Of a DNA stretch of 64,000 nucleotides, positions 10,624 through 23,633 are shown piece after piece; the first letter of the stretch is position 1, and every line of letters starts with the position of its first letter. Under the pieces are notes generated by a model that saw only the letters and a list, made by a program, of their open reading frames with translations, had not been told where the DNA came from and did no database searches. The stretch spans positions 186,001 through 250,000 of the forward strand of contig JANSWW010000001.1 of the NCBI GenBank assembly GCA_024743275.1. Direction: 5' to 3'. The position numbers and the translations under genes were made by a program. This stretch comes from Alphaproteobacteria bacterium (GTDB lineage: Bacteria > Pseudomonadota > Alphaproteobacteria > JANSWW01).

Positions 10624-11931
10624 ATGACCCAAACGGCGGACGTCCTCATCATCGGCGCCGGCGTGATCGGCGCGGCCGTTGCCTTCGAGCTGTCCAAGAT
10701 GGGGCTCAAGACCCTCACTGTGGACCGCAACCGGCAGGCCGGACACGGCTCGACCGCCGGATCCTGCGCGATCATCCGCATGCACTATTCGACCTTCGAC
10801 GGGACCGCCTTCGCGTGGGAAGGCTATCACTATTGGCGCGATTGGCGGGACTATCTGGAGGCGGCGGCCGGTGAAAGCGTCGCCACCTTCCGGGAGACCG
10901 GATGCCTGGTCATGAAGACCGAGGGCAACGGCCTTCTGGAAAAGCACATGAAGAACAGCGCGGCGATCGACTGCCCCTATGAGGAATGGTCGCCCGAACA
11001 GATCACCGAGAGGCTGCCGATCTATTCGATGGAGAGCTTCGCGCCGCCGCGGGCCCGCGCCGACGCCGATTTCGGGAAATCCAATGGCGGCCATCTGCGC
11101 GGCGGGGTGTTCTGGCCAAAGGCGGGCTATGTCACCGATCCGGCCTTCTCCGCCCAGAATCTCATGGACGCTTCCCTGCGCAAGGGCGCCCGGGTCCAAA
11201 TGGGCGCCACGGTCACCGACATCCTGACCGGGGGCGGCCGGGTGAAGGGCGTCCGTCTCGCCGACGGTACGGAACTCCATGCGCCGGTGGTGATCAATGT
11301 CGCCGGGCCCGCCTCCTCCCGGATCAACGCCATGGCGGGCGTGCTCGACGACATGACAATCGAGACCCGGGCGCTCCGGCAGGAGGTGGTCCATGTGCCC
11401 GCCCCGAAAGGGTTCGATTTCGAGACCAACGGGACCATCGTCTCCGACAGCGATATCGCCTGCTATGTCCGCCCGGAGCACGGCAATCATATCCTGATCG
11501 GCAGCGAGGACCCGGAATGCGACCCCCATGTCTGGGTCGACGACGACATGGACTACAACCGGGATTTCACCGAGCAGTGGACGACCCAGGCCATGCGCTA
11601 CGGCCAGCGGGTGCCGTCGCTCGGCATCCCGTCGAAGACGCGCGGGGTGGTCGACCTCTACGATGCCTCGACGGACTGGATCCCGATCTACGACAAATCG
11701 CTGCTGCCCGGCTTCTACATGGCCTGCGGGACCAGCGGCAATCAGTATAAGAACGCCCCGATCGCCGGAAAGATGATGGCGGCCCTGGTCGACTATTGCG
11801 AGGGCGGCGCCGACCACGACAGCGCCCCGCTGCGGTTCACCCTGCCCTATATCGACCAGTCCATCGACGTCGGGTTCTATTCCCGCAAGCGGCCGATCAA
11901 CCAGGAATCGAGCTTCTCGGTTCTGGGCTAG
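10624..11931 (+). CDS. FAD-dependent oxidoreductase of the DAO/sarcosine oxidase type
   Basis: The 435-residue protein opens with an FAD-binding Rossmann motif (VLIIGAGVIGAAVAFEL, about residues 7-23) and has the DAO-family layout seen in sarcosine, dimethylglycine and D-amino-acid oxidases. An RNRQAGHGST segment near residue 40 and a C-terminal ACGTSGNQYKNAPIAG segment fit FAD binding at the two ends of the fold. Such enzymes oxidise secondary or tertiary amines; the substrate here is unknown. There is no signal peptide, so it is cytoplasmic. It sits directly behind the cupin gene and 27 bases before the sulfotransferase gene. Confidence 0.85.
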   Translation: MTQTADVLIIGAGVIGAAVAFELSKMGLKTLTVDRNRQAGHGSTAGSCAIIRMHYSTFDGTAFAWEGYHYWRDWRDYLEAAAGESVATFRETGCLVMKTEGNGLLEKHMKNSAAIDCPYEEWSPEQITERLPIYSMESFAPPRARADADFGKSNGGHLRGGVFWPKAGYVTDPAFSAQNLMDASLRKGARVQMGATVTDILTGGGRVKGVRLADGTELHAPVVINVAGPASSRINAMAGVLDDMTIETRALRQEVVHVPAPKGFDFETNGTIVSDSDIACYVRPEHGNHILIGSEDPECDPHVWVDDDMDYNRDFTEQWTTQAMRYGQRVPSLGIPSKTRGVVDLYDASTDWIPIYDKSLLPGFYMACGTSGNQYKNAPIAGKMMAALVDYCEGGADHDSAPLRFTLPYIDQSIDVGFYSRKRPINQESSFSVLG

Positions 11932-11958: not shown

Positions 11959-13062
11959 ATGGCCCATCCGCTCAGCGGCGCGGACATCGACACGCTCGCG
12001 GCCGTCTTCCGGGACGGCGGCGGGCCGGACCGTTTGCCGGACCGGGCCGCGCTTTGGGGCGCCGTGCTGGGCCGCCTGCCCGCGACGCTCCTCGAAAAGA
12101 TCTTCATCGCGCGCGCCCTGCCCCGGGCGGCGGAAATGCCGCCGCCGGTCTTCATCCTCGGTCATTGGCGCTCCGGGACGACGCATCTCTACAATGTGAT
12201 GAGCCTCCATGGCTGGGGCTATGTCCCGCCGGTGGCCGTCGGTCTGCCCCATGACATGTTCGGCATCGCCCGGGCGCTGCGGCCGCTTCTGGAGCGGCAA
12301 CTGCCGGAAACGCGCTTCATCGACAATATCCCGGTAACGCCGACCAGCCCCCAGGAGGACGAGATCGCGATCGCCAACATGTCGCCGCTGTCCTTCTATC
12401 ACGGGATATACTTCCCGAAGGCGTTCGACCGCTTGATCGACCGCGGCCTGTTCTTCGACGGATGCGGTGTGGCGGAAATCGACGCCTGGTCCGAGCGCTT
12501 CGTCTATTTCATGCGGAAACTGGCCTACGACCAGAAAAAGCCCCTCCTGATCAAGAACCCGGTCTATACGGCCAGACCGGCCCTGCTTCGCAAGCTGTTC
12601 CCGGGAGCGAAGTTCATCCACATCCACCGCAATCCCCACGACGTCTTTCTGTCGATGCGGAACTTCTACAACAAGCTGCTCGGCGTCCTGGCGCTCCAGG
12701 AGGTTCCGGTGGATCTCGATGTCGACGCGACCATCCTGAGGGTCTACGACCGGATGATGCGGCGCTTCGTCGAGCAGACCGCCGGCTGGGCGGCCCCGGA
12801 TTTCGTGGAAATCCCCTATGATCGGCTGGACCGCGATCCGCTCGGCGCCATCGGACAGATCTATGAGAGCCTGGGTCTGGACGGCTTCGAGACCTTGGAG
12901 CCCCTGGCCCGCCGCTATCTCGGGGAAATCGACGGGTTCCAGAAGAACGCCTTCAAGGGCGACAAGCCGACCATCGCCAAGGTCGATGCCGCCTTGGGTC
13001 CGTGGCTCGCCCGCTGGAACTATGCCGCGCCGGATGTGGCGGAAAACGTGAGGACATCATGA
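11959..13062 (+). CDS. Sulfotransferase family protein
   Basis: The 367-residue protein has the PAPS 5'-phosphosulfate-binding loop GHWRSGTTHLYNV (about residues 70-82) and a 3'-phosphate-binding region around FIHIHRNPHDVFLS (about 215-228). These features mark it as a PAPS-dependent sulfotransferase that moves a sulfonate group to a hydroxyl or amine. There is no signal peptide. A purine-rich site (agaggggg) lies about 8 bases upstream of ATG 11959. The stop codon overlaps the start of the next gene as ATGA. It is followed by a lactonase-like lipoprotein and hopanoid genes in the same direction, so a lipid acceptor is a reasonable guess but is not shown. Confidence 0.85.
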   Translation: MAHPLSGADIDTLAAVFRDGGGPDRLPDRAALWGAVLGRLPATLLEKIFIARALPRAAEMPPPVFILGHWRSGTTHLYNVMSLHGWGYVPPVAVGLPHDMFGIARALRPLLERQLPETRFIDNIPVTPTSPQEDEIAIANMSPLSFYHGIYFPKAFDRLIDRGLFFDGCGVAEIDAWSERFVYFMRKLAYDQKKPLLIKNPVYTARPALLRKLFPGAKFIHIHRNPHDVFLSMRNFYNKLLGVLALQEVPVDLDVDATILRVYDRMMRRFVEQTAGWAAPDFVEIPYDRLDRDPLGAIGQIYESLGLDGFETLEPLARRYLGEIDGFQKNAFKGDKPTIAKVDAALGPWLARWNYAAPDVAENVRTS

Positions 13063-14081
13063 GGCTCGCCGCCCTGATCATGGCTCTTTCGGTCTCCGCG
13101 TGCGCGGTCGCCGCCGATTGCTCCGTGGCGCCGGTGACCGTGGACGGGCGTCCGCTTGCCGGGATCGAGGATATCGCCCTTATGCCCGACGGCGGCACGC
13201 TGCTGCTCTCCGCCCATGACCGCGGGGCGCCGGATGGTGGTACGGACGGGATATTCACCCTGCCCGTCGCGGCTCTGGACGATATCGCCCCCGAGGCTGT
13301 TCCCCTGCCCGGCCTTCCAAACGACCTGAACCGGCCCCATGGCATCGCCGTAGACCGGACGGGCGCGCGTCTGGCCTTCATCCACCGGCCGGGCGGCGCC
13401 ACCGGGCCGGATCACACGGAGGTCCTGTGGGGCACCCTGGGTCCGGAAGGCTTCGTGCGGAGCGGGATGATCGACGGGGAAAGGGTCTGCCGCGCCAACG
13501 ATCTGACCTTCGCCGCCGACCGGCTGCTCGTGACCCTCGACCGGCGGGGCTGCGACATCGAGACCGCGGACTTTACGCCCTGGGCCGAGACCGGTCGGGT
13601 TCTGACGATCGAGCCGGATGGCGCTGTCGGCGTCACGCGCGAACGCTTCGCCTTCGCCAATGGGATCCTCTGGGACGGCGACCGGGCGATTGTCGCCGAG
13701 ACCCGCGCCGGCGCGCTCTCAACCATCGATGGGAGCTGGTTGATCGAGTTACCCGGCGGGCCGGACAATCTCAGCTTCGCCCCGGACGGGCGGGTGATCG
13801 CCGCACTGCATCCCTCGGCCTTGCGAATCTTCTTCGGCCTCAAGCTGGGTGTCGAGCAAACGCCGAGCCTGATCGTCTCCGCCGATCTTGAGACAGGCGC
13901 GGTGAGAACGCTCTACGAGGATACAGGGTCCGAGTTCTCGGCGGCGACCAGCGCACTGATCATCGAGAACACGCTGGTCGCGGGCTCGGTGCTGGACAAG
14001 GGCCTTCTCGTCTGCCGGAACGTCGGTCCCGGTAAGGACACGGGAGCGGAGGCCGAGTTCGGCAAAAGAAACGACCAATGA
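13059..14081 (+). CDS. Paraoxonase/SMP-30-like beta-propeller, probable lipoprotein
   Basis: This 340-residue protein has a short signal sequence with a lipobox-like V-S-A-C (Cys15), so it is probably an exported lipoprotein. The mature part resembles the six-bladed propeller of paraoxonases, gluconolactonases and strictosidine synthase-like proteins. Repeated blades carry segments such as IALMPDGGTLLLSAHD, RPHGIAVD, RANDLTF and FANGILWDGDRAIVAET. The conserved Asn/Asp positions would hold a central calcium. Family members hydrolyse lactones or esters; the substrate here is unknown. ATG 13059 overlaps the sulfotransferase stop. Its own stop overlaps the next start as ATGA, so three genes are tightly coupled. 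Confidence 0.75.
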   Translation: MRLAALIMALSVSACAVAADCSVAPVTVDGRPLAGIEDIALMPDGGTLLLSAHDRGAPDGGTDGIFTLPVAALDDIAPEAVPLPGLPNDLNRPHGIAVDRTGARLAFIHRPGGATGPDHTEVLWGTLGPEGFVRSGMIDGERVCRANDLTFAADRLLVTLDRRGCDIETADFTPWAETGRVLTIEPDGAVGVTRERFAFANGILWDGDRAIVAETRAGALSTIDGSWLIELPGGPDNLSFAPDGRVIAALHPSALRIFFGLKLGVEQTPSLIVSADLETGAVRTLYEDTGSEFSAATSALIIENTLVAGSVLDKGLLVCRNVGPGKDTGAEAEFGKRNDQ

Positions 14082-15085
14082 CCACAGCCCGCCCGATCCT
14101 GGTCACCGGCGGGGCCGGCTTCATCGGCGGCCATGTCCGCCTCGCGCTGGCCGCCCGGGGATACCGGGTCCGGTCGTTGGACCTGACCACGCCGCGCACG
14201 CGTCTGGCCGACGAGCAGATCATGGAAGGGTCTGTGACGGACATGGACCAGGCGATGTCGGCTGTCGACGGCGCGGCGGGCGTCATCCACGGCGCGGCCC
14301 TCGCCCATCTGTGGCGGCGCGACCCGATGGACTTCGACCGGGTCAATGTCGAGGGCACCGCCAATATGATCCAGGCGGCGCGGGTGGCCGGAATACCCTT
14401 CCTCCATCTCTCCAGCTTCACGACCCTGGTCGGACGGACGGCCCGCGACGGCGACATCCTGGACGAAACCGTCGCGGTGGCGCCGAGTGACCTTCTCGGT
14501 GCCTATCCGCGCTCGAAGCGCCGCGCCGAACGGCTGGTCGAGGACGCGGCGAGCGAGGGGCTGCACGCACTCTCGGTCCTGCCCTCCGCCCCTGTTGGGC
14601 CTGGTGACCGGGGACTGACCCCGCCCAGCGCGATGATCCGGGATCTCGCGGCCGGCAAGACCCCGGGCCTGGTCGACTGCCTGCTCAATCTCGTGGATGT
14701 CCAGGCCCTGGCCGACGGGATCGTGACCGCCCTCGAAAAAGGCCGGAGCGGCGAACGTTACCTCCTGTGCGGGGAGGATCTGCCGATGAGCGACCTCGCC
14801 GAGCGCGTCGCCCGGATAAGCGGCACCCCTGCCCCGCGCTGGACGGTTCCGATGCCGGTGGCCCTGCTCGCCGGACGGGTCGAGGGCGTGACGGCGCGGA
14901 TCAGCGGAATTCCGCCGCAGGCGCCGCTGACCGGGGTGCGGCTGGCCGCCCGCCGGGTCCGCTTCGACGGGACGAAGGCCGCCCGCGATCTGGGCTTCCG
15001 GCCACCGCCGATCGACAAGGCCCTGGCGGGCGCGATCGCCTGGATGCGCTCCGAAGGGCTGCTGACCATGCGGGATGGATCCTAA
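14078..15085 (+). CDS. hpnA: NAD-dependent epimerase/dehydratase, HpnA-like
   Basis: This 335-residue extended SDR begins with the NAD-binding VTGGAGFIGGH motif and has the YxxxK catalytic pair as YPRSK (about residues 146-150). The sequence resembles HpnA, the hopanoid-associated sugar epimerase, notably a PSAPVGPGDRGLTP segment, a LNLVDVQALADG segment, and SGERYLLCGE in the C-terminal half. HpnA is not essential for hopanoid skeleton synthesis and its reaction is not well defined. The gene overlaps the upstream lipoprotein gene by ATGA and is 229 bases before shc. The family is certain. The HpnA identity is likely, supported by both sequence and position. Confidence 0.75.
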   Translation: MTTARPILVTGGAGFIGGHVRLALAARGYRVRSLDLTTPRTRLADEQIMEGSVTDMDQAMSAVDGAAGVIHGAALAHLWRRDPMDFDRVNVEGTANMIQAARVAGIPFLHLSSFTTLVGRTARDGDILDETVAVAPSDLLGAYPRSKRRAERLVEDAASEGLHALSVLPSAPVGPGDRGLTPPSAMIRDLAAGKTPGLVDCLLNLVDVQALADGIVTALEKGRSGERYLLCGEDLPMSDLAERVARISGTPAPRWTVPMPVALLAGRVEGVTARISGIPPQAPLTGVRLAARRVRFDGTKAARDLGFRPPPIDKALAGAIAWMRSEGLLTMRDGS

Positions 15086-15180
15086 ATGCGCACCGCGCCC
15101 AATGCCCTTCGGAACCCTATTCCACCAGCCGCGCCCGACTAATTCGCCATTCGGAAGGGAAACCGGACGCTGCGCGCCCG

Positions 15181-15208
15181 TGCAATTTGGAAAAGTTAAC
15201 GCTATATA
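15181..15208 (+). promoter_or_regulatory. shc: Possible shc promoter
   Basis: The 229-base gap before shc contains a locally AT-rich stretch with TATATA at 15203-15208 and a weak TGCAAT hexamer 16 bases upstream. This is a plausible but unproven promoter that would let shc be transcribed apart from the upstream chain. Nothing else is recognised in the gap. Confidence 0.3.
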
Positions 15209-15314
15209 GGACTAAGCCATTCCGCGCGGTCCCTAGGACCCTGTCCGACCAAGCCGGCCCGATCCGGTGCACCACCTGGTTAAGCTTGCGACAGAAGGAG
15301 CGATAAGAAGAAGA

Positions 15315-17297
15315 ATGAGCATGGCTGAGAGCACGGCCGAGCGCCAGGAGCCTGCCGGTTCCGCAGACGGCTTCTCCCCTCCTCCGCGCGCCGACCGCCA
15401 ATCCATCATCGACACCCAGGTCGCCCATCTTCTGGGCATGCAGAAGGACGACGGCCACATCGTCTTCGAACTGGAGGCCGACTGCACCATCCCAGCGGAA
15501 TATGTCCTGCTGCGCCATTTCGTCGGCGTCGTCGACGCCGGGCGCGAGGAACGGCTCGCGCGCTATATCCGCAAGCTCCAGAACCCCGACGGGTCCTGGC
15601 CGCTCTACCACGACGGCAGCGGCAACATCTCGGCCACCGTCAAGGGCTACTGGGCACTGAAGCTCGTCGGCGACGATATCGACGCCCCCCATATGAAAAA
15701 GGCGCGGGAATGGCTGTTGTCGGAAGGCGGGGCGGCCAAGGCCAATGTGTTCACCCGCATCATGATGGCGCTCTACCGGCAGATCCCGTGGCACGGCATG
15801 CCCTGTATTCCGGTCGAGGCGATCCTGATGCCGGAATGGTTCCCCTTCCACATGTCCAAGATCGCCTATTGGTCCCGCACGGTCCTGACGCCGCTGCTGA
15901 TCCTCTACGCGAAACGGGCCAAGGCCGCCAATCCGACGGGCAGGAACATCGACGAGCTGTTCGTCGTCCCGCCGGCAAAGCAGCGGAAATGGCAGATCAA
16001 TCCGACCGGCTCGAAAATCGGCGAGATGTTCCTGCTGCTGGACAAGGCCCTGCAAAAGGCTGAACCCCATTTCCCCAAGGGAGTCCGCGAGCGGGCGATC
16101 CGCAAGGCCGAGGAATTCACCTTGAGCCATCTCAACGGCGATCATGGCCTCGGCGCCATCTACCCCGCGATGGCGAACGCGGTCATGGCGCTGCACGCCC
16201 TCGGCTACAAGCGGGACAATCCGCATATGCAGGATGCCTGGAACGCGGTCGAGGAGCTGGTGGTCGACCGGGGCGAGGAGATCTATCTGCAGCCCTGCCT
16301 CTCACCGGTCTGGGACACCTCGCTCGCCGCGCACGCCCTGTTGGAGGCCGGCGAAAAGAACGGCCCACGGGTCATCGAGGCGCTCGACTGGCTGGCCGAG
16401 CGGCAAATCCTCGACCATGTCGGCGATTGGGCGGTGCGCCGTCCCAATCTGCGGCCCGGCGGCTGGGCCTTTCAATATGAGAACCCGGACTATCCCGACG
16501 TCGACGACACGGCCGTGGTGATCCTGGCCATGCATCGTGCCGATCAGGAGCGCTACCGGGTCAATATCGAGCGGGCCTGCGAATGGGTCGTCGGGATGCA
16601 GTCCAGTTCCGGCGGCTGGGGCGCCTTCGATCCCGAGAACGAGCATTTCTATCTCAACTCCATTCCCTTCGCCGATCACGGCGCGCTGCTCGACCCGCCG
16701 ACGGTGGACGTCACGGCCCGCTGCATCGGGGCGCTGGCCCAGGTCGACGAAGGGCACTATGCCGCCGCGATCCACAAGGGTGTCGGTTTCATCCGCCGGG
16801 AGCAGGCGGCCGACGGGTCCTGGTTCGGCCGCTGGGGCGCCAACTATATCTACGGGACCTGGTCGGCCCTGGTGGCGCTGAAGGCCACCGGCGAGGACAT
16901 GCACCAGCCCTATATCCGCAAGGCCGTGCAGTGGCTCAAGGATCACCAGCATGCGGATGGTGGTTGGGGAGAGACCCTGGAAAGCTACGAGGACCTCAAC
17001 AATGGTTTCTCCGCCGGGATCTCTACTCCCTCCCAGACCGCGTGGGCGTTGCTAGGCCTGATGTCGGCCGGCGAGCTCGACTCCGAAGCGGTCACGCGCG
17101 GGATCGCGTGGCTGGCCAACGCGCCCCGCGAGGCGGACGGCCCGCGCTGGGAGGAGAGCCACTGGACCGGAACCGGCTTTCCCAAGGTGTTTTATTTGAA
17201 ATATCATGGATATGCGGCTTTCTTCCCGCTCTGGGCCATGAGCCGTTACGAGAACTTGATCGCGTCGAACGACCGCGAGGTTCCCTGGGGAATCTGA
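15315..17297 (+). CDS. shc: Squalene-hopene cyclase
   Basis: Shc (HpnF) cyclises squalene to hopene/hopanol at the cytoplasmic membrane face. The 660-residue protein has the catalytic aspartate motif DxDD as Asp395-Val-Asp397-Asp398 and several QW-type repeats, such as NPDGSWPLYHDG, SSSGGWGAFD, AADGSWFGRWG and HADGGWGETLESY. Length and motif order match the bacterial family. ATG 15315 is preferred over the GTG at 15267. GAAGGAG lies about 15 bases upstream and purines run up to the start; ATG 15321 is an alternative. hpnG follows after 40 bases. Squalene synthesis genes (hpnC, hpnD, hpnE) are not in the window. Confidence 0.96.
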   Translation: MSMAESTAERQEPAGSADGFSPPPRADRQSIIDTQVAHLLGMQKDDGHIVFELEADCTIPAEYVLLRHFVGVVDAGREERLARYIRKLQNPDGSWPLYHDGSGNISATVKGYWALKLVGDDIDAPHMKKAREWLLSEGGAAKANVFTRIMMALYRQIPWHGMPCIPVEAILMPEWFPFHMSKIAYWSRTVLTPLLILYAKRAKAANPTGRNIDELFVVPPAKQRKWQINPTGSKIGEMFLLLDKALQKAEPHFPKGVRERAIRKAEEFTLSHLNGDHGLGAIYPAMANAVMALHALGYKRDNPHMQDAWNAVEELVVDRGEEIYLQPCLSPVWDTSLAAHALLEAGEKNGPRVIEALDWLAERQILDHVGDWAVRRPNLRPGGWAFQYENPDYPDVDDTAVVILAMHRADQERYRVNIERACEWVVGMQSSSGGWGAFDPENEHFYLNSIPFADHGALLDPPTVDVTARCIGALAQVDEGHYAAAIHKGVGFIRREQAADGSWFGRWGANYIYGTWSALVALKATGEDMHQPYIRKAVQWLKDHQHADGGWGETLESYEDLNNGFSAGISTPSQTAWALLGLMSAGELDSEAVTRGIAWLANAPREADGPRWEESHWTGTGFPKVFYLKYHGYAAFFPLWAMSRYENLIASNDREVPWGI

Positions 17298-17337: not shown

Positions 17338-18036
17338 ATGTCCGGAGACGGGAATGGCGGCCCGGCGGCCACGCCAGCCAAGATCGGCATCGTCGCCGGC
17401 ATGGAGATGGAACTGGCCGCCCTCGGACCCTGGCGGGACGACGGGCGGGTGGCGACGGCGGTCAGCGCCACCGATCCGGACCGTGCGGAAGCGGAAGCCG
17501 AAAGGCTGGCCGTGGAGGGCTGTCGGTTCCTGTTGAGCTGGGGCATCGCCGGCGGCCTCGACCCGGCGCTCGAGGCGGGCACGGTGTTCTCCGCCGTCGA
17601 GGTCCTGGCCGAGGACGGCCCGGCCGAACTACTCTACTCGCCCGCCGGCCATTTCGCCGCGCTCTACGGGTCCAACCACCCGGTCACCACGGTGGCCGAG
17701 AAGGCCGAGCTGTTCGCCAAGACCAAGGCCATCGCCGTGGATATGGAAACCCATCGGATCGCGAAGGTGGCCCACCGGCACGGCATTCCGGCCGCCGCGA
17801 TCCGCGCCATCGCCGATCCAGCGGATCGGTCGCTCCCGAAAATGGTTGATAATGTCATCGGCGAGGACGGCATGCCGCGGACATGGCCCGTGATCCTGGA
17901 TCTTCTGAAACGCCCCTGGCATATCGCCACCCTCTGGCGGCTGAAGCGGGACACGGACGAGGCGCTGGACGGCCTCAGGACCGGGGGGCGGGAATTGCTG
18001 TCCAATCTGTTGGAACGGCTGGATGCGTCGGATTGA
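17338..18036 (+). CDS. hpnG: Hopanoid-associated nucleosidase/phosphorylase HpnG
   Basis: HpnG removes adenine from adenosylhopane to give ribosylhopane, the second step in bacteriohopanepolyol side-chain building. The 232-residue chain has a nucleoside phosphorylase-like fold: a KIGIVAGMEMELAAL start, a LLSWGIAGGLDPALEAG glycine-rich segment, and DMETHRIAKVAHRHG, which fits the purine/ribose-binding region. GGGGAG lies five bases before ATG 17338. It is 40 bases downstream of shc and converges on hpnH, whose product supplies its substrate. The identity rests on both sequence and context. Confidence 0.88.
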   Translation: MSGDGNGGPAATPAKIGIVAGMEMELAALGPWRDDGRVATAVSATDPDRAEAEAERLAVEGCRFLLSWGIAGGLDPALEAGTVFSAVEVLAEDGPAELLYSPAGHFAALYGSNHPVTTVAEKAELFAKTKAIAVDMETHRIAKVAHRHGIPAAAIRAIADPADRSLPKMVDNVIGEDGMPRTWPVILDLLKRPWHIATLWRLKRDTDEALDGLRTGGRELLSNLLERLDASD

Positions 18037-18077: not shown

Positions 18078-19211
18078 TTACTCCGCCGCCAGCTTGCGGG
18101 CCTCGAGCTTGTCCATCTCCTCGGCGACGATCCGGTCGTGATGCTCCTCGGCCGGACGGACATCGGAGTGATCCAGTTCCGGCGCCATCTTGCCCTCGGT
18201 CCTCAGCCCGGTCACCGCCAGCTTCAGCATCTTCAAGGGATTGGCGATGGCGAGATTGGCCGCCGTGGGCTCATAGCCGCAATGGGCCATGCAATCGTTG
18301 CACTTCTCGTAACGCCCGGTGCCGTATTTCTCCCACTCGGTGGTCTCCATCAGCTCGGTGAAGCTCTTGGCATAGCCTTCGCCCAGAAGATAACAGGGCT
18401 TCTGCCAACCGAACACGTTGCGGGTCGGCATGCCCCAGGGCGTGCAGTGCATTTCCTGATTGCCGAGTAGGAAGTCGAGGAAGATCGGCGAATGGGAGAG
18501 CGACCATTTCTTGGAACCCCGCCGTTTGCCTTCCCGGAAAACCTCGCGGAAGAACTCCTTGGTCTTGCGCCGGTTCAAGAACCACTCTTGTTCCGGCGCC
18601 CGCTCATAGGCGAAGCCCGGCGACATCGAGATGTTGACCCCGAGATCGGTACAGAAGTCGAGAAAATCCGCCAGCTCGTCCGCCGGGTATCCGTCGAAGA
18701 TGGTGACGTTCACATTGACCTGGAAACCCTTCTCCTGGGTCGCCTTGATCGCGTTGACCGCCCGCTCGAACACGCCCTTCTGATCGACCGCCTTGTCGTG
18801 GTGCTCCTTCAGTCCGTCGAGATGGACCGAGAAGAAGAGATAGGGGCTGGGCGTGAAGAGATGCAGCTTCTTTTCCAACAGCAGCGCGTTGGTGCACAGC
18901 GAGACGTAGTATTTGCGGTCCACCAGGCCGTTGACGATCTCGCCGATCTCCTTGTGGATCAGCGGTTCGCCGCCCGGGATCGCCACCATGGGGGCGCCAC
19001 ATTCCTCGGCCGCCTCGAAGCACTCCCGGGGCGTAAGACGCCGATTGAGGATCAGGTCCGGATAGTCGATTTTGCCGCAGCCCGGACAGGCCAGATTGCA
19101 TTTGAACAGCGGCTCCAGCATCAGCACCAGCGGATAGCGTTTCCGCCCCCGTAGTTTCTGGCCGATCAGATAGGTCGCGACGCGAATCTGCTGTCTCAAG
19201 GGAATGGCCAA
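18078..19211 (-). CDS. hpnH: Adenosylhopane synthase, radical SAM protein HpnH
   Basis: HpnH is a radical SAM enzyme that joins a 5'-deoxyadenosyl group to the hopene skeleton, committing it to C35 hopanoids. The 377-residue protein has the cluster motif CNLACPGC (C-x3-C-x2-C, about residues 38-45) followed by a GGEPL motif. A further cysteine pair is seen near the C-terminus (KCNDCMAHCGY). The start is TTG 19211, supported by a GGAAG site eight bases upstream and by the N-terminal MAIPLRQ, which fits the family. It lies 15 bases downstream of ispH and is the last gene of the hpnN-hpnM-ispH-hpnH set. Confidence 0.95.
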   Translation of the reverse strand: MAIPLRQQIRVATYLIGQKLRGRKRYPLVLMLEPLFKCNLACPGCGKIDYPDLILNRRLTPRECFEAAEECGAPMVAIPGGEPLIHKEIGEIVNGLVDRKYYVSLCTNALLLEKKLHLFTPSPYLFFSVHLDGLKEHHDKAVDQKGVFERAVNAIKATQEKGFQVNVNVTIFDGYPADELADFLDFCTDLGVNISMSPGFAYERAPEQEWFLNRRKTKEFFREVFREGKRRGSKKWSLSHSPIFLDFLLGNQEMHCTPWGMPTRNVFGWQKPCYLLGEGYAKSFTELMETTEWEKYGTGRYEKCNDCMAHCGYEPTAANLAIANPLKMLKLAVTGLRTEGKMAPELDHSDVRPAEEHHDRIVAEEMDKLEARKLAAE

Positions 19212-19226
19212 GGCACTGTCTTCCGG

Positions 19227-20240
19227 TTACGGGACGGGAGCATCTGAACGGGGCCGGCGACCCTCGGCCTCGCCGGCGGGTCCGGCACGCCGGCGTGCCA
19301 TGCGCGGAAGGCGAAACCGCACCTCTTCCCGTATACCACTGTCGGCCGTCTCGACAACCATATGGCGGTATCCGGCCATGCGACCAAGGGTCTCCGTCAC
19401 CAGGATTTCGGGCGCGGAGGCCCCGGCGGTGATGCCGACGGCGCCGACATCGGCGATCCAGTCGGGGTCTAGGCTCTCGGCCTCGGGCACGAGATGCGCC
19501 GCCACCCCCTCGGCCCGCGCGATCTCGACCAGGCGATTGGAATTGGAGGAATTCTCCGCGCCGATCACCAAAACCAAATCGACCTCCCGGCTGAGTTCGA
19601 TCACCGCCTGCTGGCGGTTCTGGGTGGCGTAGCAGATGTCCTTGGTGTCCTGTCCCCGCGCATGGGGCCAACGGGCCAGGATCGCCTCGATGATCCCACG
19701 GGTGTCGGAAACCGACAGTGTTGTTTGACTGATATAGGCGACCGGATCGTCCGCCGCAAAGGGGAGTGCCGTCACCGCCTCGACGGTGTCGACCACATGG
19801 ACGTCCGCGTCGATCTGGCCGAGCGTCCCGGTGACCTCCGCGTGGCCTTCATGACCGATCAGAATGACCCGATGTCCTTGTTCGGCGTAGCGCCGGCCTT
19901 CGCCATGGACGCGGGCGACCAGCGGACAGGTCGCGTCGATCACCCGCAGATCCCGCGCAGCCGCGTCCCGTTCGACCTGCCGGGAGACCCCGTGGGCCGA
20001 GAAGATCGTCACCGCGCCTTCGGGAATCGCCTCCACCTCGTCGACGAAGATCGCCCCCTTGGCCCGGAGGTCGTCGCAGACCCGGCGATTGTGGACGATC
20101 TCGTGACGGACATAGACCGGCGCGCCATGGATGGCCAGGGCGCGTTCAACCGTGGCGATCGCGCGGTCGACACCGGCACAAAAGCCGCGTGGCGCCGCCA
20201 AAACGACCCGGAGCGTATCATTCGAACCGTGTTCACTCAT
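19227..20240 (-). CDS. ispH: 4-hydroxy-3-methylbut-2-enyl diphosphate reductase
   Basis: IspH (LytB) is the last enzyme of the MEP pathway and makes IPP and DMAPP. The 337-residue protein carries three cluster-binding cysteines in PRGFCAGV (N-terminal), DATCPLV (middle) and ICYATQNRQ (C-terminal third), plus the family histidines around YVRHEIVHN and LIGHEGHAEV. Its place between hpnM and hpnH supplies isoprenoid precursors for squalene and hopanoids and is a known type of hopanoid neighbourhood. The 3' tail after GRMAGYRHMVVET is longer than usual and arginine-rich. There are 119 bases between this gene and hpnM, which may contain a separate promoter. Confidence 0.96.
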   Translation of the reverse strand: MSEHGSNDTLRVVLAAPRGFCAGVDRAIATVERALAIHGAPVYVRHEIVHNRRVCDDLRAKGAIFVDEVEAIPEGAVTIFSAHGVSRQVERDAAARDLRVIDATCPLVARVHGEGRRYAEQGHRVILIGHEGHAEVTGTLGQIDADVHVVDTVEAVTALPFAADDPVAYISQTTLSVSDTRGIIEAILARWPHARGQDTKDICYATQNRQQAVIELSREVDLVLVIGAENSSNSNRLVEIARAEGVAAHLVPEAESLDPDWIADVGAVGITAGASAPEILVTETLGRMAGYRHMVVETADSGIREEVRFRLPRMARRRAGPAGEAEGRRPRSDAPVP

Positions 20241-20359: not shown

Positions 20360-20989
20360 TCATCCGATGGAATGTTCCCGAAGATAGGCGAGCAGCGCCT
20401 CCGGCCCCTGGCGGTCGATGATCGAGAGGAACTCGTCGCGCTTCAGGATGAGAAAGGAGGTTCCGCCGACCATGATGTCGATGACCAGATGTCCGCGCTC
20501 CCCGAAATCCCGGATCCGCCAGTCGACCGGCAGGATCTTGCCGTTGGCCCTCGGGATCGACGCCCGAACCAGCATGTCCCGGCGCGCCTTGCGGACATCC
20601 TCGATCCGCGGTTTGTCTTGCAGCCCCTTGCCGAATTGGGTCCGGTAGAGATCGGCGATGAACCCTGGCAGAAGCTGCCGAAACTCCTCCTTCTGGGCAT
20701 CCGTCAGCTCTCCGGCCCGGTCGCCGAGCAAAAAGCGCTCCCAAATCTCGAAGGCGAACGCCGCGTCGATCGTCCTGCGCAGCGCGCTGTTGCGTTCGCT
20801 GTCCGCCAGACCGTCGTCGGTCAATGCCGCATAAGCGCCGTTCACCAGCCGGCCAGCCGTGTCAAGCGCGGCGTCGGCAGGGGTTTGCGCCCCCGACGGG
20901 GTCGACAGCGCGATGGCCAAGGTCATCAAACCGGTCACCAATCCCGCCATCAGGCCTGCACGCAGTCGGATCATTGGCACGATAAGCAA
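20360..20989 (-). CDS. hpnM: Toluene tolerance/MlaC-like periplasmic lipid carrier HpnM
   Basis: HpnM belongs to the Ttg2D/MlaC family of periplasmic phospholipid-binding proteins and is found with HpnN in hopanoid clusters. The product is about 209 residues with an N-terminal signal peptide ending near GAQTP. The mature part has the family pattern FLLGDRAGELTDAQKEEF, then a basic IRDFGERGHLVIDIMVGG segment. The start taken is TTG 20989, because GGAGG is six bases upstream. ATG 20974 is the alternative and changes only five residues. It lies 67 bases downstream of hpnN. The inferred role is passing hopanoid or lipid across the periplasm. Confidence 0.85.
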   Translation of the reverse strand: MLIVPMIRLRAGLMAGLVTGLMTLAIALSTPSGAQTPADAALDTAGRLVNGAYAALTDDGLADSERNSALRRTIDAAFAFEIWERFLLGDRAGELTDAQKEEFRQLLPGFIADLYRTQFGKGLQDKPRIEDVRKARRDMLVRASIPRANGKILPVDWRIRDFGERGHLVIDIMVGGTSFLILKRDEFLSIIDRQGPEALLAYLREHSIG

Positions 20990-21056: not shown

Positions 21057-23633
21057 TCAGCGTCCGGTAAATCCGCGGACCAACACAGGTGTGATCGCGA
21101 AAATCATCACAACCGAGGCCAGCATGGAGATCGCCAGCATGACCCCCATGCTGGCGGTCCCCGCATGATCGGACAGCGACAGGGTCCCGAAGGCGGCGAT
21201 CGTCGTCAACGCGCTGGCCAGTACCGCCCGGGGCGTCGACGTCCCGAACACAGTCCCGTCGCTGCGCGCCGTTCTCAGCGCCAGATGGATTCCGGAGTCC
21301 ACCCCCACCCCGATCATCAGCGGCAACACGATGATATTGGCGAAATTGAACGGGATGCCGATCAGGCTGCTGACCGCAAGGGTGATTGTGCCGGCGAGAC
21401 AGAGCGGGATGACGATGGCGGCGACCAGGGCCACACGGCGCAGGACCAGCAAGGCCAGCAGAATTGTCCCGACGAGCGCCAGCCCGGCGGCGGTCAACAT
21501 CGCCTGGGAGACCGATCCGACCGCCCCATGGATCTGTGCCGGCGGCCCCGCGGCGGCCGGGATCTCGGCATTCACCGCCTCGACGAAGGCCGCGCGGCTC
21601 GCCGCCGCCGAGACATCGCCCTTCGGCACGATGTCGACGAGATAGCGGCCATCGGCCGACCGATAGCGGTCAACCAATGCGTCGGGCAGGCTGTCGACGG
21701 TCGCGTAATCGACATCGAGCTGGGCCTCGATCCGGCCGATCAGCTGCGGAAAGAAGCGGAAGATGCCGGCCGCGAGTGCCCGATCGGTAACCGGGTCCGT
21801 GCTTTCCCGCCATCCGTCGATCTCCCGCGCCAGGACATCGGCTTCCGCCAGGCCAAGGGCCCGCAAGCGGTCCGGCAATCGGTCCAAAAGCGCCTCCGTC
21901 TCCGGTTCCGATGCAAGGGCGACAGGCGTACCGACGACGATGAATTCCAGCGACGGCCAGGCGAGGTCGATCAGCATCAGCTTCTCGTCCTGATCCTTAG
22001 GCACCAGATCCCCCAGCCAAAGGGCGTTCTCGACCTCCGGCACGGCGTCCAGGCGCGCGGCCATCGCGACCGCTTCCTCGCGCGACTCCGCGATCACCCC
22101 CATGCGCTGGGGCGCCCGGTCCGGGTCCTGGAGCAACCAGTCATAGGCTTGGACCGAGGCCGCGTCGGGATTGCGCAGTTTCATCGGATCGGCATCGAAG
22201 CGGGCCTGCGGCGCCTGGAACAGCGAGGCGGCGCCCACCAGGATCGCCACCAGGATCAAGCCCCGGGCCACCGGTCGCGGCAGCGACGGCAGGGCCGGAA
22301 CCGACCGTCCCCCCAGAATGCCGGGCCTCAGCGCCACGAGTGCCGGGATCACCGTGATCGAGGCGAGGAAGGCGATCAGAACCCCCACCCCACCGATCAG
22401 TCCGAGCTGAGCCATGCCGACGAAGTCCGTCGCGGTAAACGCCAGAAAGGCGATGGACGTGGTTATGGCCGAGAGAAACAGGGCGGCGCCGATCTCGTTT
22501 CCCGAGACCACGACGGCCTCGGCCGCGAAGGTCCCCTTCTGCGCCTCCTCCTCCAGATGACTCAGGAAATGGATCGCGAAATCGATCCCGAGTCCGACCA
22601 TGAGCACGACGAAGGCGATGGAAATGAGGTTGAGGGCGCCAACGGCGGCGGCGGTGAACCCGACCGTCAACACCAAGGTGACCAGCAGCGTCGCCAGGGC
22701 CACGGCGACACGTCCGGGCCGGCGCAGGGCGGCGAACAGCACAAGGGTCACCAGGCCGACGGACAGCAACAGCGAGAGGCCCAGTTGCGCGGTCACCGAT
22801 TCCAGTTCCTCCGCGCGCAGCACCGGATCGCCGGTGATACCGACCTCGACCAGTCCCGCCAACTCCGGATCGAGGGCGGCGACCGCATCCCGGACGAGGG
22901 AGATCGCTGGCTTGGCGGGGCTCAAGCGGGTGAAGTCGAGGACCGGTTCCACGCCGATGGTCCTCAGGATGAATGCCCCCGTGTCCCCATCGGAAAAGGC
23001 CGCCTGCCAATCGAAGGGCCGCGGACTCCCCTGGCGCTCGGCCGCGAAAACCGCCGCCGCCTCGGCCAGGAAGGGGGCCAACGCCTTCGGATCGATATCG
23101 GCGCCGGCCGCCAGATCGACGGCCCCGTCGAGGGCGGTCAGGAACCCGTCCAAGCTTTGGTCCACGCGCAGTTCGGCCAGCACGTTGGAGGCCTGGCTCA
23201 GACGGAACAGCCGCCTGTCGAGGGTGTCCAGATCGTCGTAGAGCAGGCCGTGGGAGACCAGGAACGCGTCCTCCGACGGCGCGAAAACCCGCGCGATGTC
23301 TCCGTCGTGACCGGTCAATCTCGCGGTGAGTTGCGCGACCGCGGCATCCGCCGCATCACGATGCCGCGATCTGACCAAGACCAGGATCGTCCGTTTGGTG
23401 GCCGGAAAGGCCTCCGCGATCGCCCGCGTCTGTGCCTGGAAGTCGAGATCTTCCGACAGCATCCGGCTTGAATCCGTATCGATCTTGAGCCCCGTCGCCA
23501 AAGCGATCGAGCCCATCATCAAAAGGCCGACCACGAAAAGCACCCGACGGGGGGCACGGAAGACGGCGGCGGCCCACCAACTCACGAAGCGGGTAAGCCC
23601 GTCATGCCCGAAAGTGTTGTCGAGATGCCTCAC
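21057..23633 (-). CDS. hpnN: RND-family hopanoid transporter HpnN
   Basis: HpnN is an inner-membrane RND/MMPL-type transporter that moves hopanoids to the outer membrane. The 858-residue chain has the duplicated RND plan: one membrane helix, a large periplasmic loop, five helices with GLGIDFAIHFLSHL, then a second half ending in GVGVDSGIHLALRTA and a final helix bundle. The start GTG 23633 has GAGGAG about 10 bases upstream; upstream readings up to 23699 are less likely. hpnM, ispH and hpnH follow in the same direction. mlaA diverges from it, so the intergenic region 23634-23818 should hold both promoters. Confidence 0.92.
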   Translation of the reverse strand: MRHLDNTFGHDGLTRFVSWWAAAVFRAPRRVLFVVGLLMMGSIALATGLKIDTDSSRMLSEDLDFQAQTRAIAEAFPATKRTILVLVRSRHRDAADAAVAQLTARLTGHDGDIARVFAPSEDAFLVSHGLLYDDLDTLDRRLFRLSQASNVLAELRVDQSLDGFLTALDGAVDLAAGADIDPKALAPFLAEAAAVFAAERQGSPRPFDWQAAFSDGDTGAFILRTIGVEPVLDFTRLSPAKPAISLVRDAVAALDPELAGLVEVGITGDPVLRAEELESVTAQLGLSLLLSVGLVTLVLFAALRRPGRVAVALATLLVTLVLTVGFTAAAVGALNLISIAFVVLMVGLGIDFAIHFLSHLEEEAQKGTFAAEAVVVSGNEIGAALFLSAITTSIAFLAFTATDFVGMAQLGLIGGVGVLIAFLASITVIPALVALRPGILGGRSVPALPSLPRPVARGLILVAILVGAASLFQAPQARFDADPMKLRNPDAASVQAYDWLLQDPDRAPQRMGVIAESREEAVAMAARLDAVPEVENALWLGDLVPKDQDEKLMLIDLAWPSLEFIVVGTPVALASEPETEALLDRLPDRLRALGLAEADVLAREIDGWRESTDPVTDRALAAGIFRFFPQLIGRIEAQLDVDYATVDSLPDALVDRYRSADGRYLVDIVPKGDVSAAASRAAFVEAVNAEIPAAAGPPAQIHGAVGSVSQAMLTAAGLALVGTILLALLVLRRVALVAAIVIPLCLAGTITLAVSSLIGIPFNFANIIVLPLMIGVGVDSGIHLALRTARSDGTVFGTSTPRAVLASALTTIAAFGTLSLSDHAGTASMGVMLAISMLASVVMIFAITPVLVRGFTGR

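Follow-up and report, generated by a model that had tools for sequence, protein, structure and literature searches.

Hopanes are leading molecular fossils. The genes for hopanoids form a canonical cluster comprising hpnA-B-C-D-E-F(shc)-G-H together with hpnM and hpnN, and the known tailoring of the head group or rings of bacteriohopanepolyol (BHP) is carried out by HpnI/K/J, which provide the cyclitol ether, and by HpnO, HpnP and HpnR (PMC12583986). A 2025 survey of alphaproteobacterial hopanoids states that hpnA, hpnB and hpnL have no established function and that the enzyme converting ribosylhopane to BHT is unknown; despite special attention, it saw no obvious new candidate genes adjoining hpn clusters (PMC12583986). 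The open-access literature, to which our search was confined, yielded no mention of a sulfated hopanoid, of a hopanoid sulfotransferase or of the gene module considered here, which would likewise act in head-group tailoring, none of the known tailoring enzymes being a sulfotransferase.

The locus lies in a 64,000-nucleotide stretch of an alphaproteobacterial contig, hereafter the window, and its features are as follows.

10624..11931, + strand: DAO-family FAD-dependent oxidoreductase, ending 27 bp upstream of the sulfotransferase gene
11959..13062, + strand: sulfotransferase (ST), PF13469/PF00685, predicted cytoplasmic
13059..14081, + strand: exported protein with a predicted paraoxonase-type six-bladed propeller fold (PON-like), probable lipoprotein (family profile, AF2 model, lipobox VSAC15)
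14078..15085, + strand: HpnA' (HpnA-prime), an extended SDR/3beta-HSD-like NAD(P) enzyme assigned to a sister subfamily of HpnA (TIGR03466 score, tree)
15086..15314, + strand: 229-bp gap between the chain and shc
15315..17297, + strand: shc/hpnF, squalene-hopene cyclase (TIGR01507, 751 bits, above cut-off)
17338..18036 (alternative start 17314), + strand: hpnG, adenosylhopane nucleosidase/phosphorylase (TIGR03468, 165.7 bits, below the cut-off of 187.1)
18078..19211, - strand: hpnH, adenosyl-hopene transferase (TIGR03470, 523 bits, above cut-off)
19227..20240, - strand: ispH, 4-hydroxy-3-methylbut-2-enyl diphosphate reductase
20360..20974, - strand: MlaC-domain protein in the hpnM position (PF05494, 3e-20)
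21057..23633, - strand: HpnN-like RND transporter (TIGR03480, 685 bits, below the cut-off of 752)

The gene content and order around the chain are those of the canonical cluster, the differences being that HpnA is replaced by its sister subfamily and that the genes for ST and the PON-like protein are added. As the preliminary description had held, the three genes overlap twice by ATGA, at 13059-13062 (ST/PON) and 14078-14081 (PON/HpnA'), and these overlaps are not due to chance, since the second has a length of exactly 4 bp in 38 out of 54 loci, and the first recurs in 33 of 53. The same description had the chain running straight into shc-hpnG, which has to be amended: 229 bp separate HpnA' from shc, such that shc could possibly be transcribed separately from its own promoter in the gap, and a consensus sigma-70 site was not found in 15086-15314. 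Farther along, hpnH, ispH and the genes for the MlaC-domain and HpnN-like proteins are convergent to shc-hpnG. The MlaC-domain protein gave no match to the HpnM model, while hpnB-E are absent from the window and from the remainder of the 544-kb contig C5 (searched minus its first 6 kb; the assembly is 93% complete). The notion that HpnN is altered in genomes carrying ST was rejected, as two of these genomes have an HpnN above cut-off, at 759 and 919 bits respectively. The FAD-dependent oxidoreductase may be co-transcribed with ST in this genome; as a fourth member of the module it was rejected, relatives being found near ST in 0 of 80 loci.

Scanning a collection of 84,980 genomes with the ST alignment yielded 513 relatives, the best 80 of which were analysed along with an even class sample of 385 genomes and a separate phylum sample of 399; a scan with the lipoprotein alone gave no matches. 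Near ST in the best 80 of the 513 we find HpnA' in 76, the PON gene in 65 and another hpn gene in 60, either HpnA' or another hpn gene lying within about 10 kb in 77, and ten of these loci contain the full run ST-PON-hpnA'-hpnB-C-D-E-shc-hpnG, with hpnB on the opposite strand. These 80 loci belong to named Parvularculales, Rhodobacterales, Rhodospirillales, Sphingomonadales, Iodidimonadales and Hyphomonadales, and also to MAGs assigned to Verrucomicrobiota, Planctomycetota and Cyanobacteriota, where contamination is possible. Ten genomes of the class sample, from 7 genera, carry ST orthologues at 45-56% identity; an HpnA-like gene adjoins ST in nine, and in the tenth (G371) a contig end cuts the locus and ST adjoins hpnM- and hpnN-like genes. 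Three loci (G310, G224, G120) display the order hpnN/hpnM, ST, PON, hpnA', hpnB, hpnC, hpnD, hpnE, shc, hpnG, so that the chain recurs within this cluster in families independent of one another, and HpnB, HpnD, HpnE, HpnH and Shc exceed the NCBIfam cut-offs in a sister locus or in the window. All 10 of these ST-bearing genomes encode a squalene-hopene cyclase, against a background of 106 of 385 (27.5%), for which the hypergeometric probability is 2e-6, or 7e-5 by genus, both values being rough because the genomes are related; the cyclase is above cut-off in 20 of 20 named ST-bearing genomes, MAGs of three other phyla included. The close ST orthologues of the phylum sample (G743, G441, G750) are all hpn-linked, and G750, from another class, provides an independent case with ST-HpnA'-HpnG-HpnH, whereas distant PF13469 sulfotransferases of that sample (at most 33% identity; seven in five genomes) are not, so that the hopanoid link is a property of this ST subfamily.

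The assignment of the chain to hopanoid biosynthesis is thus strongly supported. The preliminary description had proposed its coupling to hopanoid genes, and the 80 loci and both samples agree; the chain could have turned up mostly away from such genes, and is instead predominantly linked to them, with a few ST-bearing genomes (G347, G091) carrying it far from shc. That ST and the lipoprotein are mere passengers of a chance neighbourhood could be argued from the oxidoreductase 27 bp upstream, which shows that unrelated genes can abut; conservation of the module in some twelve named families and across several phyla, the retained 4-bp overlaps and a linkage that is rearranged yet retained make this so improbable that we reject it. 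ST with HpnA' and no PON gene is found in Verrucomicrobia, Caenispirillum, Defluviicoccus and other loci, and since several lineages do without it the PON-like protein is accessory: the core of the module is ST plus HpnA', with the paraoxonase-like protein frequent but dispensable.

A different acceptor must also be considered: the module might sulfate some other lipid or glycolipid of the envelope (a carotenoid, a different triterpenoid or an HpnB-made glycolipid, for example) and share the cluster for its squalene or for HpnN/HpnM export. This would accommodate the non-proteobacterial loci L113 and L122, where ST stands by an MMPL/RND transporter (in Phycisphaera with an MlaC-like gene as well) and not by hpnC-H, and the 20 of 80 loci with no hpn gene beyond HpnA' in reach, in some cases owing to contig ends. 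However, HpnG and HpnH, which are specific to the BHP side chain, stand in the ST gene run in many loci and in G750, and Shc is present in every ST-bearing genome examined, such that we regard another lipid acceptor as unlikely.

Several loci depart from the common pattern in other ways. The genome G347 carries a second ST copy (L047, 9652-10611; 45% identity) whose neighbourhood holds no hopanoid genes. In the Phycisphaera MAG (L113, 10028-15326) HpnA' is missing, and the neighbours of ST are an MMPL/HpnN-like transporter and an MlaC/HpnM-like gene. Distant PF13469 sulfotransferases adjoin polyketide/PUFA-synthase-like genes at L166, L167 and L170, the last with an RND/MMPL-like transporter directly downstream. 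A record titled Oceanobacillus sp. HTM 045 (L056) holds a complete hopanoid cluster of alphaproteobacterial type together with the module, and is probably mislabelled. In many Parvularculaceae (L058-L099, Marinicaulis; G091, G396, G397, G402) hpnE and hpnG are contiguous with no shc between them, and in the genomes checked the sole cyclase is encoded elsewhere by a divergent copy whose match to TIGR01507 extends to position 612 of 640; that of G091 has about 40% identity to the Shc of the window.

The third gene, which the preliminary description called HpnA-like, is aptly labelled and nevertheless distinct from HpnA. The two have the extended SDR superfamily and the cluster position in common, whereas against TIGR03466 (the hopanoid-associated sugar epimerase) the window protein scores 277 bits for a cut-off of 367.65 and HpnA' members 249-339 in one comparison and, for those adjoining ST in the class sample, 249-349, compared with 464-493 for four canonical members. 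The protein resembles HpnA, less closely SdmB and OleD, which are lipid enzymes of the 3-beta-HSD type, and even less GalE. In a tree of 44 rows (7 canonical HpnA, 31 ST-linked, 6 without an ST link) the seven canonical rows form one clade with support 100/100 and no ST-linked row inside it; 6 of the 37 rows on the non-canonical side are HpnA' without ST, and the ST-linked rows are not monophyletic (p-AU 0.006). Judged by score and tree position, then, the third gene is not canonical HpnA, a candidate we reject, but a member of a sister subfamily that is new in this analysis, and since none of the 10 ST-bearing genomes contains a TIGR03466 match above cut-off, HpnA' stands in for HpnA there. 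At the locus L137 (6465-8539) a PON-like gene and HpnA' overlap by ATGA and ST is lacking; the genome in question (G326) also encodes canonical HpnA adjoining hpnN (L138).

Enzymes of the ST family use PAPS as sulfonate donor, in the cytoplasm. The window protein matches PF13469 (Sulfotransfer_3) with 99.6 bits (4e-28; gathering cut-off 27) and also PF00685 (Sulfotransfer_1), and contains a PSB-type loop, 65-FILGHWRSGTTHL, the motif 130-SPQEDE and a 3'-PB-type motif, 224-RNPxxxxxS; across 39 ST relatives GHWRxGTT, PQEDE and the RxP...S motif (R224, S232) are invariant. By these sequence criteria ST is a predicted PAPS-dependent sulfotransferase of PF13469 with its PAPS-site motifs intact. Its AF2 model (pLDDT 91.5) finds the mycobacterial Stf9 (2z6v) and Stf1 (2zq5) as best PDB matches; with these and other PF13469 PAPS sulfotransferases ST has the fold and PAPS-site motifs in common, differing from Stf9/Stf1 in genome context and sharing about 15% identity with them. 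An APS kinase is encoded in the genome of the window (G000:C15:66695-67249), and was rejected as a discriminator: it is present in 25 of 27 ST-bearing genomes and, nearly equally commonly, in 22 of 27 hopanoid genomes without ST (p 0.21), and is therefore unspecific.

The nearest solved folds also include the sulfotransferase domains of CurM and the olefin synthase (4gbm, 4gox) and retinol dehydratase. In CurM, which acts in curacin biosynthesis, as in the olefin-synthase domains and retinol dehydratase, sulfate serves as a leaving group. The main rival on mechanism follows this precedent: ST would activate a hydroxyl of the BHP side chain for elimination or ring closure, giving an anhydro, unsaturated or cyclic hopanoid free of sulfur, with HpnA' supplying an oxidised intermediate and the PON-like protein opening or closing a lactone. 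Besides these folds, several distant PF13469 paralogues adjoin polyketide synthase genes; however, the closest folds are Stf9 and Stf1, not CurM, and the cluster has no conserved gene dedicated to elimination, which leaves the loss of the sulfate an improbable course.

The exported protein at 13059-14081 has no match in Pfam. Comparison with serum PON1, a Ca2+ lactonase/arylesterase, requires the family profile, which matches PON1 (1v04) at 7e-27, the PON1 matches of a phmmer search with the lipoprotein sequence alone being weak. The AF2 model (pLDDT 90.1) superposes on PON1 with a TM of 0.71-0.74 and an rmsd of 3.1-4.0, so the modelled fold is a six-bladed propeller like that of PON1 at about 21% identity. 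The set of PON1 ligands compared (Asn168, Asn224, Asp269, Asn270, Glu53) has equivalents throughout: by alignment the calcium ligands are kept as N147, D148, N201, D236 and N237, and E37 and D38 (GxED) correspond to Glu53/Asp54 by position only, beyond the printed alignment. His115 is kept as H94; the His115-His134 dyad is not, the His134 position being mostly Arg in the family, and for this reason we describe a paraoxonase-type hydrolase and do not name it PON. Four cysteines (21, 144, 165, 319) are invariant, which fits an exported disulfide-bonded protein; residues 12-15 of the window protein form a lipobox-like VSAC after a short signal, and such a motif occurs in 34 of 56 relatives, the rest of which look plainly secreted. 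The preliminary description of a paraoxonase-like propeller thus gains a PON1 fold and calcium ligands, which make an ester or lactone hydrolase reasonable; by analogy with PON1, and in contrast to it a bacterial protein exported from within a hopanoid cluster, it is probably a calcium hydrolase acting outside the cytoplasm.

Taken together, the module points to an undescribed hopanoid, of which a sulfated product is a well-founded hypothesis. We propose that Shc, HpnH and HpnG would make BHP, whose polyol or sugar head group would be shaped in the cytoplasm by HpnA' as an NAD(P)-dependent oxidoreductase/epimerase; that ST would move a sulfonate from PAPS to a hydroxyl of this head group, the sulfate being kept in an anionic sulfated BHP; that this product would leave by the HpnN/HpnM route; and that the Ca-dependent PON-like protein would, after export, act on the head group by opening a lactone or cleaving an ester, or alternatively remove surplus product. 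To this hopanoid-tailoring module in its entirety, sulfated BHP, export and paraoxonase-like finishing included, we assign a probability of roughly one half.

In this context, adenosylhopane only has been found in A. brasilense Sp 7 (PMC12583986). In other A. brasilense strains (L126, L127, L130, L131) ST and PON genes lie close to shc, so that, on the gene content of these relatives, an undetected anionic product is possible in this species. The wider claim is that many Alphaproteobacteria, and members of some other phyla, make a whole class of anionic sulfate-bearing BHPs by means of ST and HpnA', a paraoxonase-type enzyme finishing the product outside the cytoplasm, and that lipid surveys have overlooked this class; we put it forward tentatively, at somewhat less than even odds. 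The conserved pairing of ST with a sister of HpnA predicts a defined chemical change, and hosts from culturable genera, namely Parvularcula, Caenispirillum, Limibaculum and Azospirillum, carry the module; a charged class of hopanoids may thus have escaped lipid surveys.
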